A DNA stretch of 39,061 nt, taken from contig JAESST010000198.1 of assembly GCA_016763995.1 (NCBI GenBank), forward strand, positions 1-39,061, read 5' to 3'. Every line of letters starts with the position of its first letter. The stretch's first letter is position 1. Below the pieces are notes generated by a model. It was not told where the DNA came from and did not search any database. It saw only the letters and a list, made by a program, of their open reading frames with translations. Made by a program: the position numbers and the translations under genes. This DNA is from Flavobacteriales bacterium. Lineage in GTDB: Bacteria > Bacteroidota > Bacteroidia > Flavobacteriales_E > Vicingaceae. Shown here in pieces: positions 13,079 to 32,007 of the stretch.

Positions 13079-14104
13079 TTACTCTGCTGTCCACACATTA
13101 CTGCCGCTTAATAGCTGGTCAAGATTCCCTTCTCCCTTTTTGCTTGTGGCAAAGGCAATCTGTTCTTCCATAGCTTCTTCATAACGGTATCTATCTTCTG
13201 CATAGAATACACCAAAAGGTCTTGGCAAATGTCCTTCAATTGAAGGATTGTCGAAAAAAGTAGTTAATAATTGTGCTTTAAATTTATCGTTTTCATCATG
13301 AATCATTAAATCTGCCTCATTAACATCAGTTAAGTTAACTACTGTTGGGGTAGAACCATTTAGTTTAATTCCTTTTTCTTTGTTTGCTTCAAAAATCAAT
13401 GGCTTACCATGCTCTAAAAATAGAGTCTCTTGCATTTTACTCCCCTTATCAGTAAAAATCTCAAATGCGCCATCATTAAAAACATTGCAATTTTGATATA
13501 TTTCAATCATTGAAGTTCCAATATGTTGACTTCCTCTTAAAAGGATTTCTCTTTGGTGTTTTGGGTCTCTGTCCATCGTTCTTGCAATGAAAGTAGAGTC
13601 AGCACCCAAACATAGCTTTAATGGATTGAATGGATGGTCTAACGATCCTATAGGCGTCGATTTTGTTACTTTTCCTGCAGGAGAGGTGGGAGAATATTGC
13701 CCTTTTGTTAACCCGTAAATTTCATTGTTGAACAACAATACATTCAAATCGAAATTTCTACGAATCATATGAATCAGGTGATTTCCTCCAATAGAAAGAG
13801 CATCTCCATCTCCTGTAACTACCCACACACTTAATTCAGGTCTACTTATCTTTAGCCCACTTGCAATAGCAGTTGCTCTTCCATGAATGCTGTGCATTCC
13901 AAAGGTGTCCATATAATATGGGAAACGTGAAGAACAGCCAATTCCTGAAATGAAAACAACGTCTTTCTTATCTCTACCCAATTCAGGCATGATAGATTGA
14001 ACTTGTTTAAGAATCGAGTAATCACCGCAGCCTGGGCACCATCTTACATCTTGATCGGTAGCAAAATCTTTTGCTATTAATTTTTTAGTCGCTACTTCGC
14101 TCAT
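13079..14104 (-). CDS. korB: 2-oxoacid (2-oxoglutarate-type):ferredoxin oxidoreductase, beta subunit
   Basis: This TPP- and 4Fe-4S-binding subunit takes part in ferredoxin-linked oxidative decarboxylation of 2-oxoacids. It has 341 residues. Likely cluster ligands are C23 and C26 in [10 protein letters not shown]57 in [11 protein letters not shown], and C206 in [11 protein letters not shown]. The TPP motif is [13 protein letters not shown] (98-110) ending at [16 protein letters not shown]. The ATG overlaps the korA stop by four bases, indicating tight coupling. Substrate assignment to 2-oxoglutarate rests on family similarity; branched or other 2-oxoacids remain possible. No ferredoxin gene is adjacent. 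Confidence 0.92.
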
Positions 14105-15942
14105 GCTACTTCAAATTTTTGTTGAATGGCTTCTACGATTTCTTTTGTAGAAAAAGGAATTCCTTTTATTTTATTCAAACCTTGTGCATCTATTAAAAAT
14201 AGATCTCGGATTATTTTTACAAGCTGACCGTTATTAATTTCTGGAACAATAACATGCTTGTATTTTTTTAATAGATCGCCTAAGTTTTTAGGCATTGGAT
14301 TTAGATAGGTCAAATGAATGTGTCCAACTTTTAACCCATCTTGGTTACACTGTTTAACGGCGGTCTTTACGACTCCATAAGTTGATCCCCAAGAAAGAAT
14401 TAATAGATCTCCCTCTTCAGCACCGTTGCTTATTTCTTGTAAAGGAATGCTATCTGCTATCTTCGCGATTTTTGCCTCACGAATCTTTACCATCGTTTCG
14501 TGATTGTCTGGATCATAGGAAACATTTCCAGTGTCAATTTCTTTTTCTAGTCCTCCAATTCTATGCTCATAGCCCGACATTCCTGGCAAGGCCCAATCTC
14601 TTACTAGATTCTCATCTCTTTTGTAAGGAAGGTATTGTTCGTCAGTTTTTTCTCCGACAAATTTTGGAGTAATTGGTTTTAAATCGGCAGATTTTGGGAA
14701 TTTCCACGGCTCAGAACCATTGGCAATGTAGCCGTCTGAAAGTAAAAATACAGGAGTCATGTGTTCTATTGCTATTCTACAAGCTTCATAAGCAGCATTA
14801 AAGCAATCAGAAGGAGTCGATGCAGAAACGATAGGCATGGGAGCCTCTCCATTTCTTCCATAATATGCCTGTAATAAATCAGCCTGCTCTGTTTTCGTTG
14901 GGAGGCCTGTAGAAGGGCCTCCACGTTGTACATTTACAATAACCATTGGCAATTCTAGCATGATACCAAGTCCAATAGCTTCACCCTTTAAAGCAATGCC
15001 AGGGCCAGAAGAAGCAGTGACTCCTAATTTTCCTCCAAAAGAAGCACCAATAACAGAACACATTGCTGCAATTTCATCTTCTGCTTGAAAAGTCCTTACA
15101 CCAAAATTCTTGTGTTTTGTTAATTCATGCAAAATGTCTGAGGCAGGAGTAATAGGATAAGAGCCATAAAATAAGTCAAGTTTTGATTTTTGCGAAGCAG
15201 CAATCAATCCTAATGCTGCAGCCTGATTTCCCATAATGTTTCTATAGGAACCCGAAGGCAAGCTAGCAGCTTTTACATTATATCTTGAAGTAAACACTTC
15301 ACTTGTGTCTCCGAAGTTATAACCTGCCTTTAACACCATAATGTTGGCTTCGATTAAATCAGGCTTTTTAGCAAACTTTTGTTTGATGAACTCTTCTGTA
15401 CCTTTTAGAGTTCTGTTGTACATGTAATAAAGAAAACCTAGTACAAACATATTCCTAGAACGATCCATTTCCTTTTTGCCAAGACCTCTATCTTCAAGAG
15501 TGGTTCGGGTCATTTTGGTCACATCAATCTGAATGGTTCTAAAGTCATTTAACGATTTGTCTTCTAAGGGACTGGTTTCATAACCTGCTAACTTCAAATC
15601 CCTTTTATTAAACCCATCAGAATTAATAATGATGGTTCCACTTTTCTTAAGCCGTGCAATATTTACTTTAAAGGCCGCGGCATTCATGGCTACCAAAACA
15701 TCACAATCATCTCCTGGAGTGGAGATTTCGATGCTTCCAAATTTTAATTGGAAGCCTGAAACGCCTGCTAAAGTACCTTGTGGGGCTCTAATTTCTGCTG
15801 GGTAATTTGGAAAGGTGCTAATGTCATTTCCATAAAGGGCATTGGTGTTTGTAAACTGAGTTCCAGTTAACTGTATTCCATCTCCAGAATCCCCTGCAAA
15901 TACAATGGTTACTTCCTTTTTTTCTTCAACTTCTTTTGTCAT
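14101..15942 (-). CDS. korA: 2-oxoacid:ferredoxin oxidoreductase, fused gamma-alpha subunit
   Basis: 613 residues from the ATG at 15942. The N-terminal ~190 residues are the gamma (CoA-side) domain, starting [19 protein letters not shown]. The rest is the alpha pyrimidine-binding part ([58 protein letters not shown]). I chose 15942 over a TTG at 15969 because the TTG lies inside the -7 element at 15967-15974, and MTKE matches family starts. It is the promoter-proximal gene of korAB. Such fused KorA is common in Bacteroidota, where it can replace or complement 2-oxoglutarate dehydrogenase in the TCA cycle. Confidence 0.92.
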
Positions 15943-15966: not shown

Positions 15967-16000
15967 CAAATTTACTTAGAATAAGTCTAAATAATATCAA
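15967..16000 (-). promoter_or_regulatory. Candidate korAB promoter
   Basis: On the minus strand, TAAATTTG (15974 to 15967) fits TAnnTTTG and a TTG (16000 to 15998) lies 23 bases upstream. The implied start near 15962 leaves about 20 bases before the korA ATG at 15942. The -33 element directly abuts the palindrome at 16001-16022. Confidence 0.5.
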
Positions 16001-16022
16001 GATTGTATGCATGCATACAATC
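16001..16022. promoter_or_regulatory. Perfect 22-bp palindrome, likely operator
   Basis: The half-site GATTGTATGCA is followed by its exact reverse complement with no spacer. It lies in the divergent region between korA and the FadL-like gene, touching the -33 element of the korAB promoter and 46 bases from the fadL-type ATG. It has no T-run and no upstream gene to terminate, so a dimeric-regulator site is the better reading. The regulator is unknown. Confidence 0.55.
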
Positions 16023-16067
16023 GATAATTTTTTATATCTTTAATTTCTTTTACAAAATTTAACAGAT

Positions 16068-17282
16068 ATGAAAAAACTATTACTGCCTTTATTGGGCATT
16101 ATACCTTTGCTTTCGTTAGCAGGAGGATTTCAAGTGAACCTTCAAGGTACAAAGCAAACAGGAATGGGCCATTTAGGTACGAGTTTCCATTTGGGTGCAT
16201 CAAGTACTTATTTCAATCCGGCAATGATGGGCTTGGATACGAATAGATTTGGAATTGAGTTAGGTGTAAACTTCATTACTTCAAATATTGAATTCCAAAA
16301 TAGCTTGAATGGTATCTCGGAAACGACAGAAAATCCAACTGGCACTCCGTTTTATCTATATGCAACCTACAAAATTAATGATAAGCTAACAGCTGGACTT
16401 GGAGTATATACTCCATTTGGAAGTTCTGTTGATTGGGGAGAAGATTGGTCTGGTAAGCATCTGATTCAAGATATTTCGCTGCGTGCTATTTTTATTCAGC
16501 CAACCTTATCTTATTCTATCAATGATAAATTAAGTTTTGGAGCAGGTTTAACAATAGTAGATGGAGCCTTTGAAATTAATAGAGCCTTACCAGTGCCAAT
16601 TGGGAATAATGCAACAGCAAATCTCGAAGGAAGTGCAATTGCTTTTGGGTTTAATGCCGGACTACACTTTCAAGCTACAGAGCAACTAAGCATTGGTTTA
16701 ACGCATCGATCAAAAGTAGAAATTGAATTAGAAGGAGGAGATGTTGACTTTACAACTGATGCTGCATTAGCTTCTAGCTTTCCTGATGGGAAATTTGATG
16801 CAACTCTACCACTTCCGGCTACCACAACATTAGGTATTGCTTATAAAGTCAATGAAAAACTTTTAGTTTCTATTGAGGGAAGTTTTGTAGAATGGAGTGC
16901 ATATAAATCGTTGGATTTTGATTTTGAGACGGAGACTGCAAGTTTGAAAGATTCGAAAAACCCTAGAAACTATGAAGATGCTATGATTTTTAGAGCCGGG
17001 GCTCAGTATTCTTACAATGAAATGTTAGACTTTAGAGCTGGATTCTACTATGACCAATCACCTATTCAAGATGAATATTTTAATCCTGAAACACCAAATT
17101 CTGATAATATTGGTTTAACAGCTGGATTAAGCGGCCATATAACGGAGCGATTTGGATTTGATGCTTCTTTCTTATACATCATCGGACAAGAAAGAGATTC
17201 AGAATACAAACCAGCTGGATTTGGAGGTAAATATGCTTCAAGGTCAGTAATTACAGGAATTGGATTTAATTATTCATTTTAA
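16068..17282 (+). CDS. OmpP1/FadL-family outer-membrane transporter
   Basis: 404 residues. The signal peptide is MKKLLLPLLGIIPLLSLAGG, after which the protein starts with GFQVNLQGTKQTGMGHLGTS, the N-terminal plug region of FadL-type porins. The conserved YFNPAMMGL (NPA motif) follows near residue 50. Alternating hydrophobic strands continue to the C-terminus, which ends in GIGFNYSF with a terminal aromatic residue as in beta-barrels. The family moves long-chain fatty acids or other hydrophobic compounds across the outer membrane. It lies 20 bases before an SGNH lipoprotein and probably forms one transcript with it, suggesting that a lipid or ester product is released and imported (inference). 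Confidence 0.9.
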   Translation: MKKLLLPLLGIIPLLSLAGGFQVNLQGTKQTGMGHLGTSFHLGASSTYFNPAMMGLDTNRFGIELGVNFITSNIEFQNSLNGISETTENPTGTPFYLYATYKINDKLTAGLGVYTPFGSSVDWGEDWSGKHLIQDISLRAIFIQPTLSYSINDKLSFGAGLTIVDGAFEINRALPVPIGNNATANLEGSAIAFGFNAGLHFQATEQLSIGLTHRSKVEIELEGGDVDFTTDAALASSFPDGKFDATLPLPATTTLGIAYKVNEKLLVSIEGSFVEWSAYKSLDFDFETETASLKDSKNPRNYEDAMIFRAGAQYSYNEMLDFRAGFYYDQSPIQDEYFNPETPNSDNIGLTAGLSGHITERFGFDASFLYIIGQERDSEYKPAGFGGKYASRSVITGIGFNYSF

Positions 17283-30820: not shown

Positions 30821-31309
30821 ATGGCAAGCGATAGATTCCAAGCACCTGATTATTACCTATTAGATGATTTGTTGACAGAAGAACACAAATTAATTCGTGA
30901 TACTGTGAGAGAATGGGTTAAGAAAGAGGTGTCTCCTATTATAGAAGATGCAGCTCAAAAAGGAGAATATCCAATTGAGTTAAATAAGGGGATCGCTGAA
31001 TTAGGTGGGTTTGGACCTTATATCCCAACAAAGTATGGTGGGGCAGGCTTAGATCAAATTTCTTATGGATTAATCATGCAAGAATTTGAAAGAGGGGATT
31101 CAGGTTTGAGATCTGCTGCTTCTGTTCAAAGTTCATTGGTAATGTATCCGATTTATAATTATGGAAATGAAGATCAAAGAAATAAGTACCTACCAAAGTT
31201 AGCTTCTGGAGAATGGGTAGGTTCTTTCGGATTAACAGAACCTGATTATGGTTCTGATCCGAGTGGAATGATTACCAATTATAAAGATATGGTGACCATT
31301 ATTTATTAA
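30821..31309 (+). CDS. gcdH: Glutaryl-CoA dehydrogenase, N-terminal part (frameshifted gene)
   Basis: The N-terminal 156 residues of an acyl-CoA dehydrogenase, with helical domain DDLLTEEHKLIRDTVREWVK, GGAGLDQISYGLIMQEFERG, and RSAASVQSSLVMYPI. The Arg-Ser-X2-Ser-Val-Gln segment and FGLTEPDYGSDPSGM are typical of glutaryl-CoA dehydrogenase, which oxidises and decarboxylates glutaryl-CoA to crotonyl-CoA in lysine and tryptophan breakdown. The natural frame is lost after NYKDM: the next codons read VTIIY then stop. Adding one G to the GG at 31291-31292 restores GDHYLLNGAKMWITNSPICD and joins the C-terminal part. The intact gene is 30821-32007, 395 residues. Confidence 0.88.
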   Translation: MASDRFQAPDYYLLDDLLTEEHKLIRDTVREWVKKEVSPIIEDAAQKGEYPIELNKGIAELGGFGPYIPTKYGGAGLDQISYGLIMQEFERGDSGLRSAASVQSSLVMYPIYNYGNEDQRNKYLPKLASGEWVGSFGLTEPDYGSDPSGMITNYKDMVTIIY

Positions 31310-31320
31310 ACGGAGCAAAA

Positions 31321-32007
31321 ATGTGGATTACCAATTCACCAATTTGCGATGTAGCTGTTGTTTGGGCTAAGAACGAAGAAGGAAGAATTCACGGTTTAGT
31401 TGTTGAACGAGGAATGGAAGGCTTTACAACTCCTGAGACGCATGGTAAATGGTCGTTAAGAGCATCTAGAACTGGAGAGCTGGTTTTTGATAATGTTAAA
31501 GTTCCAAAGGAAAACTTATTGCCAAATAAATCTGGTTTAGGTGCACCACTTGGTTGTTTAGATTCTGCCCGTTATGGAATTGCTTGGGGTGTAATTGGTG
31601 CGGCAATGGATTGTTATGATTCTGCTTTGCGATACTCTCAAGAAAGAATTCAGTTTGGAAAGCCGATTGCAGCGTATCAATTAACGCAAAAGAAATTAGC
31701 AGAAATGATAACTGAAATCACAAAAGCACAGTTTCTAACATATCGTTTAGGTCAGTTGAAAAATGAAGGTAGAGCAAGCTCTCAACAAATCTCTATGGCG
31801 AAAAGAAACAATGTTGATATGGCATTGAAGATTGCCAGAGAAGCGCGTCAAATTCATGGAGGAATGGGAATTACTGGGGAATATCCAATTATGCGTCACA
31901 TGATGAATTTAGAATCAGTGATTACTTATGAAGGAACGCACGATATCCATCTACTGATTACAGGTATGGACATTACAGGGCATTCTGCTTTTAGAAGCGA
32001 TCAATAA
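31321..32007 (+). CDS. gcdH: Glutaryl-CoA dehydrogenase, C-terminal part (frameshifted gene)
   Basis: This is the rest of the enzyme from MWITNSPICDVAVVWA; the homologous frame already begins near 31293, so the ATG at 31321 is an internal Met. Seen: GKWSLRASRTGELVFDNVKV, RYGIAWGVIGAAMDCYDSAL, the FAD-side RIQFGKPIAAYQLTQKKLAE, and ARQIHGGMGITGEYPIMRH. The catalytic-base Glu lies in VITYEGTHDIHLLITGMDIT, as in glutaryl-CoA dehydrogenases. All key residues of both halves are intact, which favours a sequencing error or a very recent break over an old pseudogene. Confidence 0.88.
   Translation: MWITNSPICDVAVVWAKNEEGRIHGLVVERGMEGFTTPETHGKWSLRASRTGELVFDNVKVPKENLLPNKSGLGAPLGCLDSARYGIAWGVIGAAMDCYDSALRYSQERIQFGKPIAAYQLTQKKLAEMITEITKAQFLTYRLGQLKNEGRASSQQISMAKRNNVDMALKIAREARQIHGGMGITGEYPIMRHMMNLESVITYEGTHDIHLLITGMDITGHSAFRSDQ

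Follow-up and report, generated by a model that had tools for sequence, protein, structure and literature searches.

Which protein, if any, recognizes a perfect palindrome that lies between genes for 2-oxoacid oxidation and lipid uptake? Such a palindrome occupies the 125-bp spacer between a korA-like gene (start 15942, minus strand) and a divergent fadL-like gene (start 16068, plus strand) in the 39,061-nt stretch of DNA analyzed here, which we call the window. A preliminary description had proposed that one dimeric winged-helix regulator, which it could not name, acts here to join 2-oxoacid oxidation with lipid uptake. The relevant features of the window are the following.

13079..14104, minus strand: 2-oxoacid:acceptor oxidoreductase beta subunit (KorB-like); TIGR02177 just below cut-off, Pfam TPP_enzyme_C
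14101..15942, minus strand: 2-oxoacid:acceptor oxidoreductase alpha subunit (KorA-like); TIGR03710 above cut-off
15967..15974, minus strand: korA -7 element TAAATTTG; from the sequence, aligned with similar elements in relatives
15998..16000, minus strand: possible korA -33 element (TTG) with a 23-nt spacer, directly adjoining the palindrome
16001..16022, no strand: perfect 22-bp palindrome, proposed MarR-type operator
16006..16017, no strand: putative operator core TATGCATGCATA
16035..16042, plus strand: fadL -7-like element TATCTTTA, downstream of the core; in 12 family loci the fadL promoter has TAnnTTT at the equivalent position
16068..17282, plus strand: OmpP1/FadL/TodX outer-membrane transporter, most likely the regulated gene; Pfam PF03349, E 1.3e-65

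Judged by KorA (89-90% identity), the nearest named relatives belong to Flavobacteriales, one of them labelled Vicingaceae. Elsewhere in the window, an acyl-CoA-dehydrogenase-like gene (by eye) at 30821-32007 is split into ORFs 30821-31309 and 31321-32007, either by a frameshift or by an assembly error.

Symmetry and rarity of the palindrome

Both the perfect symmetry and the placement in the divergent region of a FadL-like importer are borne out. The palindrome consists of two 11-bp arms, GATTGTATGCA followed by TGCATACAATC, with no spacer and no mismatch, and no other spacer-less palindrome in the window is as long. The next longest, GCCCTTTGCATGCAAAGGGC, spans 20 bp at 2527-2546 between an ORF end at 2492 and an ORF at 2579, and resembles a terminator hairpin. 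In third-order Markov simulations, perfect palindromes of 22 bp number 0.015-0.017 in a sequence of 39,061 bases and 1.7-2.0 in one of 4.51 Mb. Since about two are expected per genome, the symmetry of 16001-16022 is by itself weak evidence and only mildly unusual. The assembly itself comprises 4.51 Mb in 519 contigs, compared with 2.3-3.3 Mb in five genus relatives, pointing either to a larger genome or to foreign contigs.

The palindrome is the sole copy in the assembly, allowing up to 3 mismatches in 22. Genome-wide searches with the full-length palindrome and with half-sites separated by 0-12 bp returned no second copy, and the inner 18-mer at 3 mismatches gave just four poor additional matches. 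It was the shorter core alone that exposed a regulon.

The core is a predicted operator of a MarR-family regulator

In relatives, a search with the inner 18 bp at 2 mismatches found a pair of cores in front of a MarR gene that is followed by a 3-hydroxyacyl-CoA dehydrogenase gene (L120), and one match upstream of an acyl-CoA dehydrogenase gene (L118). The exact core is present in 19 copies in 25 genomes, and its reversed control in 0. Eleven of the 19, including one in the genome of the window, are located in front of a MarR gene heading a beta-oxidation operon; one of these, in G004, is at a contig end and was assigned by its conserved neighbors. Five others precede lipid-linked genes, namely fadL (in the window), an acyl-CoA dehydrogenase, a phasin-like gene, a thioesterase, and etfBA/pdhB, and the remaining copies are one on contig C226 and two in coding sequence.

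The genome of the window contains 4 exact cores against 0.15-0.45 expected from third-order Markov simulation: the window site, one located ~50 bp in front of a MarR homolog, the one on C226, and one within a coding region on C40. This MarR homolog (147 aa; contig C125, L143/L248; Pfam MarR PF01047, E 6.8e-12) heads a four-gene operon that continues with a FadB-like protein (802 aa), a thiolase, and a FadE-like acyl-CoA dehydrogenase. We examined 30 MarR loci, from 30 of the 46 genomes with a match, and the core is found at up to 2 mismatches within 250 bp upstream in 28 of them. This distribution is strong evidence that TATGCATGCATA is the autoregulatory operator of a MarR-family regulator of beta-oxidation, as predicted from gene context. 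The earlier idea of a dimeric winged-helix regulator tied to lipid use is supported, and the protein that had gone unnamed is most likely a member of the MarR family.

The best-scoring MarR-type site of the genome is the palindrome TTTATTATGCATGCATAATAAA at C226:39549-39568 (L144 ~1497-1516), which precedes genes for a DUF7793 protein and an adenosine deaminase (by eye), with a pyrophosphatase-like ORF (by eye) on the divergent side. That this top site stands before genes with no clear link to lipids counts against the lipid reading of the motif.

Fit of the window site to the operator motif and its conservation

We built an operator matrix by taking the core as the seed and refining it with the MarR promoters, with the window excluded. 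Twenty-nine of the 30 loci contributed a site, while L156, which has no matrix site in its ~140 bp of upstream sequence, was omitted. The window site scores 11.2, where the 99.9th percentile of shuffled intergenic regions is 7.4, and this is below all 29 MarR operators (11.6-19.9). A sequence (covariance) model was made from 20 of the 29 operators, again leaving out the window; it places the window site third of the four matches listed in its own genome, with a single-site E-value of 0.885. The departures are in the outer positions. The window has T at +/-8 from the center, a position at which 96% of the counts in MarR operators are A or G, and its outer letters are ATTG..CAAT as compared with the TTAT..ATAA flanks of MarR operators, a difference that is symmetric on both arms.

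Conservation in close relatives, which the preliminary description had named as a check, is not seen. The korA gene adjoins fadL in 13 of 30 fadL loci (this genome included), with a gap of 123-136 bp in 12 of them, and the four genus relatives examined all keep this arrangement without the site. The best matrix scores in their four korA-fadL spacers are -3.2 to -8.1, and alignment shows no comparable sequence there. Degenerate sites scoring 7.8 and 5.9 occur at the same place in L092 and L093, 16 bp from the fadL -7 as compared with 17 bp in the window; these are two related species of one other genus and hence not independent. The site at the fadL promoter thus looks lineage-specific. Conservation of this kind does not define an operator, but its absence deprives the assignment of support. 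Because the outer letters differ, the score falls below all MarR operators, and the site is lineage-specific, its membership in the MarR operator family is good but imperfect.

These same observations bear on whether the palindrome is accidental, an ATGC repeat that happens to be complementary to itself, lies in a spacer rich in A and T, and binds no protein. The number of such palindromes expected per genome, the four genus relatives without a site, and the single-site E-value all lean this way. Against it, the core matches exactly the one in the operator of a regulator of lipid catabolism from this genome and lies in the promoter of a lipid importer at a fitting spacing, and the expectation of an exact core inside this 125-bp region, derived from the simulation, is near 1e-5. 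We consider a chance origin unlikely, although it is the best surviving of the alternatives to a MarR operator acting mainly on fadL.

Placement of the proposed operator at the fadL and korA promoters

The preliminary description had reported a good korAB promoter including a -33 element. This holds for the -7 element TAAATTTG, which matches the Flavobacterium consensus TANNTTTG (PMC6847099), and less so for the -33, which is a TTG alone with a 23-nt spacer. It had overlooked that the position of the palindrome suits the fadL promoter, with its -7-like element TATCTTTA, no less well. The distance from the core to the -7 is 17 bp for fadL and 31 bp for korA.

In MarR promoters, some of which lack a clear -7 element, the end of the core is separated from a downstream -7 by 10-14 or 18-19 bp, or the core directly follows the -7, over the start. 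For the C125 MarR gene the distance is 19 bp, and for those of five near relatives 18 bp. Where the operator directly follows the -7 and covers the start, its position fits repression. At a spacing of 17 bp the operator would cover the -33 region of fadL, a usual place for a repressor, and only flank the korA promoter. Since this spacing is close to the 18-19 bp of the nearest kin, repression of the FadL-like importer is the best supported outcome.

Of the proposal that one regulator joins 2-oxoacid oxidation with lipid uptake, the lipid part is supported, and the korAB part is unproven, the spacing suiting fadL far better (17 bp) than korA (31 bp). Co-control of korAB is only possible, but it has some substance, given that in three relatives the same operator stands between etfBA and a divergent pdhB (see below). 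Going further, the site could be a MarR operator chiefly for korAB, through activation or repression, with fadL secondary, a reading that names the same regulator as the one we prefer. The palindrome does directly adjoin the possible korA -33, and the etfBA/pdhB operators offer a parallel, but the 31 bp from core to korA -7 is outside all of the MarR spacing classes, and we regard this order of priorities as improbable, a little more so than a chance origin.

Binding of 16001-16022 by a different regulator with a look-alike core, either a MarR paralog or a GntR/FadR-type protein, is more doubtful again. Sites resembling TTGTATACAA are known for GntR regulators, the outer letters differ from the MarR flanks on both arms, and the genome has a second, weak MarR homolog on C420, but all 12 bp of the core are identical to the MarR operator and the functional context matches. 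A transcription terminator or RNA hairpin is very improbable, and an intrinsic terminator is rejected, since 16001-16022, although marked terminator-like on both strands by a simple scan, is flanked by two genes that are both transcribed outward and is not located at a gene 3' end, and has few G-C pairs (3 in the scan) and no immediate U-tract on either strand.

We therefore favor a MarR operator, and it is probable that 16001-16022 is functional as such and acts mainly on fadL. The palindrome would be bound by the C125 MarR that heads the fadB-fadA-fadE-type beta-oxidation operon, as a dimer with one half-site per subunit, and over the fadL -33 region this would repress the importer of fatty acids. 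On entry of fatty acids, the MarR would be released by a ligand such as an acyl-CoA or a similar compound, so that the importer and the beta-oxidation operon open together. The divergent korAB promoter may be touched as well, with the dimer directly upstream of its -33.

Other predicted targets of the operator

The 20-operator model, with the window excluded, has matches at E <= 1 in at least 45 of 60 genomes. We examined 39 non-autoregulatory sites, comprising 35 among the model matches listed and 4 from the exact-core survey. Nine are directly before lipid genes and three more before plausible targets, as follows.

etfBA, four sites: L192, L210, L222, L232
Acyl-CoA dehydrogenase, three sites: L193, L234, L241
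2,4-dienoyl-CoA-reductase-like gene, one site: L269 (272.5 bits, cut-off 318)
Thioesterase, one site: L189
Plausible targets, three sites: phasin L190, Fe-S protein L235, SDR L271

Pfam/NCBIfam was used to check the identity of the etf, dehydrogenase, thioesterase, phasin, and SDR genes. Twenty-one sites have no visible lipid link, a class mostly judged by eye, and 6 are within genes. Further copies upstream of fatty-acid genes, which the preliminary description had suggested looking for, therefore do exist. In three genomes (L192, L222, L232) the operator is located between divergent etfBA and the gene for pyruvate dehydrogenase E1 beta (pdhB). By gene content, this predicted pairing is of the same kind as fadL/korAB, setting lipid oxidation against 2-oxoacid oxidation. 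MarR-type sites are also found before a Dps/ferritin-like gene in both of the related genomes L239 and L240 (~1501), and near an HI0933-like flavoprotein in a second related pair, L217 (~1500) and L243 (~671).

A candidate small RNA divergent from the MarR operon

In 12 of 60 genomes (E < 2e-11), the strand opposite to the MarR operon encodes, upstream of the operator, a conserved RNA of ~75 nt; the count excludes five more weak matches with E near 0.005-0.009. In the genome of the window it has the following position.

L143 1403-1477 (C125:18630-18704), minus strand: small RNA, also in 11 relatives

The RNA has a nearly invariant 44-nt 5' part followed by a terminator-like hairpin, the arm sequences of which vary between species, and in each of 4 sequences tested the fold is better than in any of 200 shuffles. 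Covariation speaks neither for nor against the two small stems in the 5' part, which show no double changes. The MarR operator is 26-30 bp before the conserved motif of the RNA in 12 of 12 loci, and a TAnnTTTG element follows the core by 10-13 bp in 11 of 12. The operator is thus between two promoters, one for the operon and one for the small RNA, which supports a two-way operator in this MarR family. An Rfam search at this RNA returned nothing significant, and it is apparently undescribed. Its model has only weak matches in the 39,061-nt window, and it is therefore not part of the palindrome finding.

Comparison with known regulators and significance

MarR-family autoregulated repressors are winged-helix dimers that bind palindromes. 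The C125 regulator resembles them in having a palindromic operator in its own promoter, in this family sometimes over the start site, and differs in its link to a beta-oxidation operon and its occurrence in Bacteroidota. None of the NCBIfam equivalogs matches it above cut-off, the best being BilQ with 53 of 125 bits. FabT, a MarR regulator, shares the protein family and the connection to lipid metabolism, but is a weak match (26.6 bits, cut-off 200) and controls fatty-acid synthesis according to its model title, whereas the genes here are catabolic. CouR is a MarR protein that senses an aromatic acyl-CoA, and it is among the structurally solved sequence relatives of the C125 MarR (PDB 6c28, E 6.1e-6), at low similarity. 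By analogy, an acyl-CoA is a plausible ligand of the C125 MarR.

Beta-oxidation is regulated by FadR (GntR) and PsrA/FadP-type (TetR) proteins, in which one regulator serves uptake, beta-oxidation, and electron-transfer genes. This logic is common to the system predicted here, while the protein family is MarR and the operator is different. In open PMC papers we found no description of the control of fatty-acid use in Bacteroidota and no such regulator.

More tentatively, this MarR may be a hitherto undescribed master switch of fatty-acid catabolism across Bacteroidota, in which one operator would coordinate import by fadL, beta-oxidation, ETF, and the oxidation of 2-oxoacids (through korAB in the window and pdhB in relatives), and would also drive the divergent small RNA as a post-transcriptional arm. 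The predicted regulator, operator motif, target genes, and candidate small RNA together are directly testable, and the window would illustrate how a genome recruits a lipid importer into a regulon by gaining one site.
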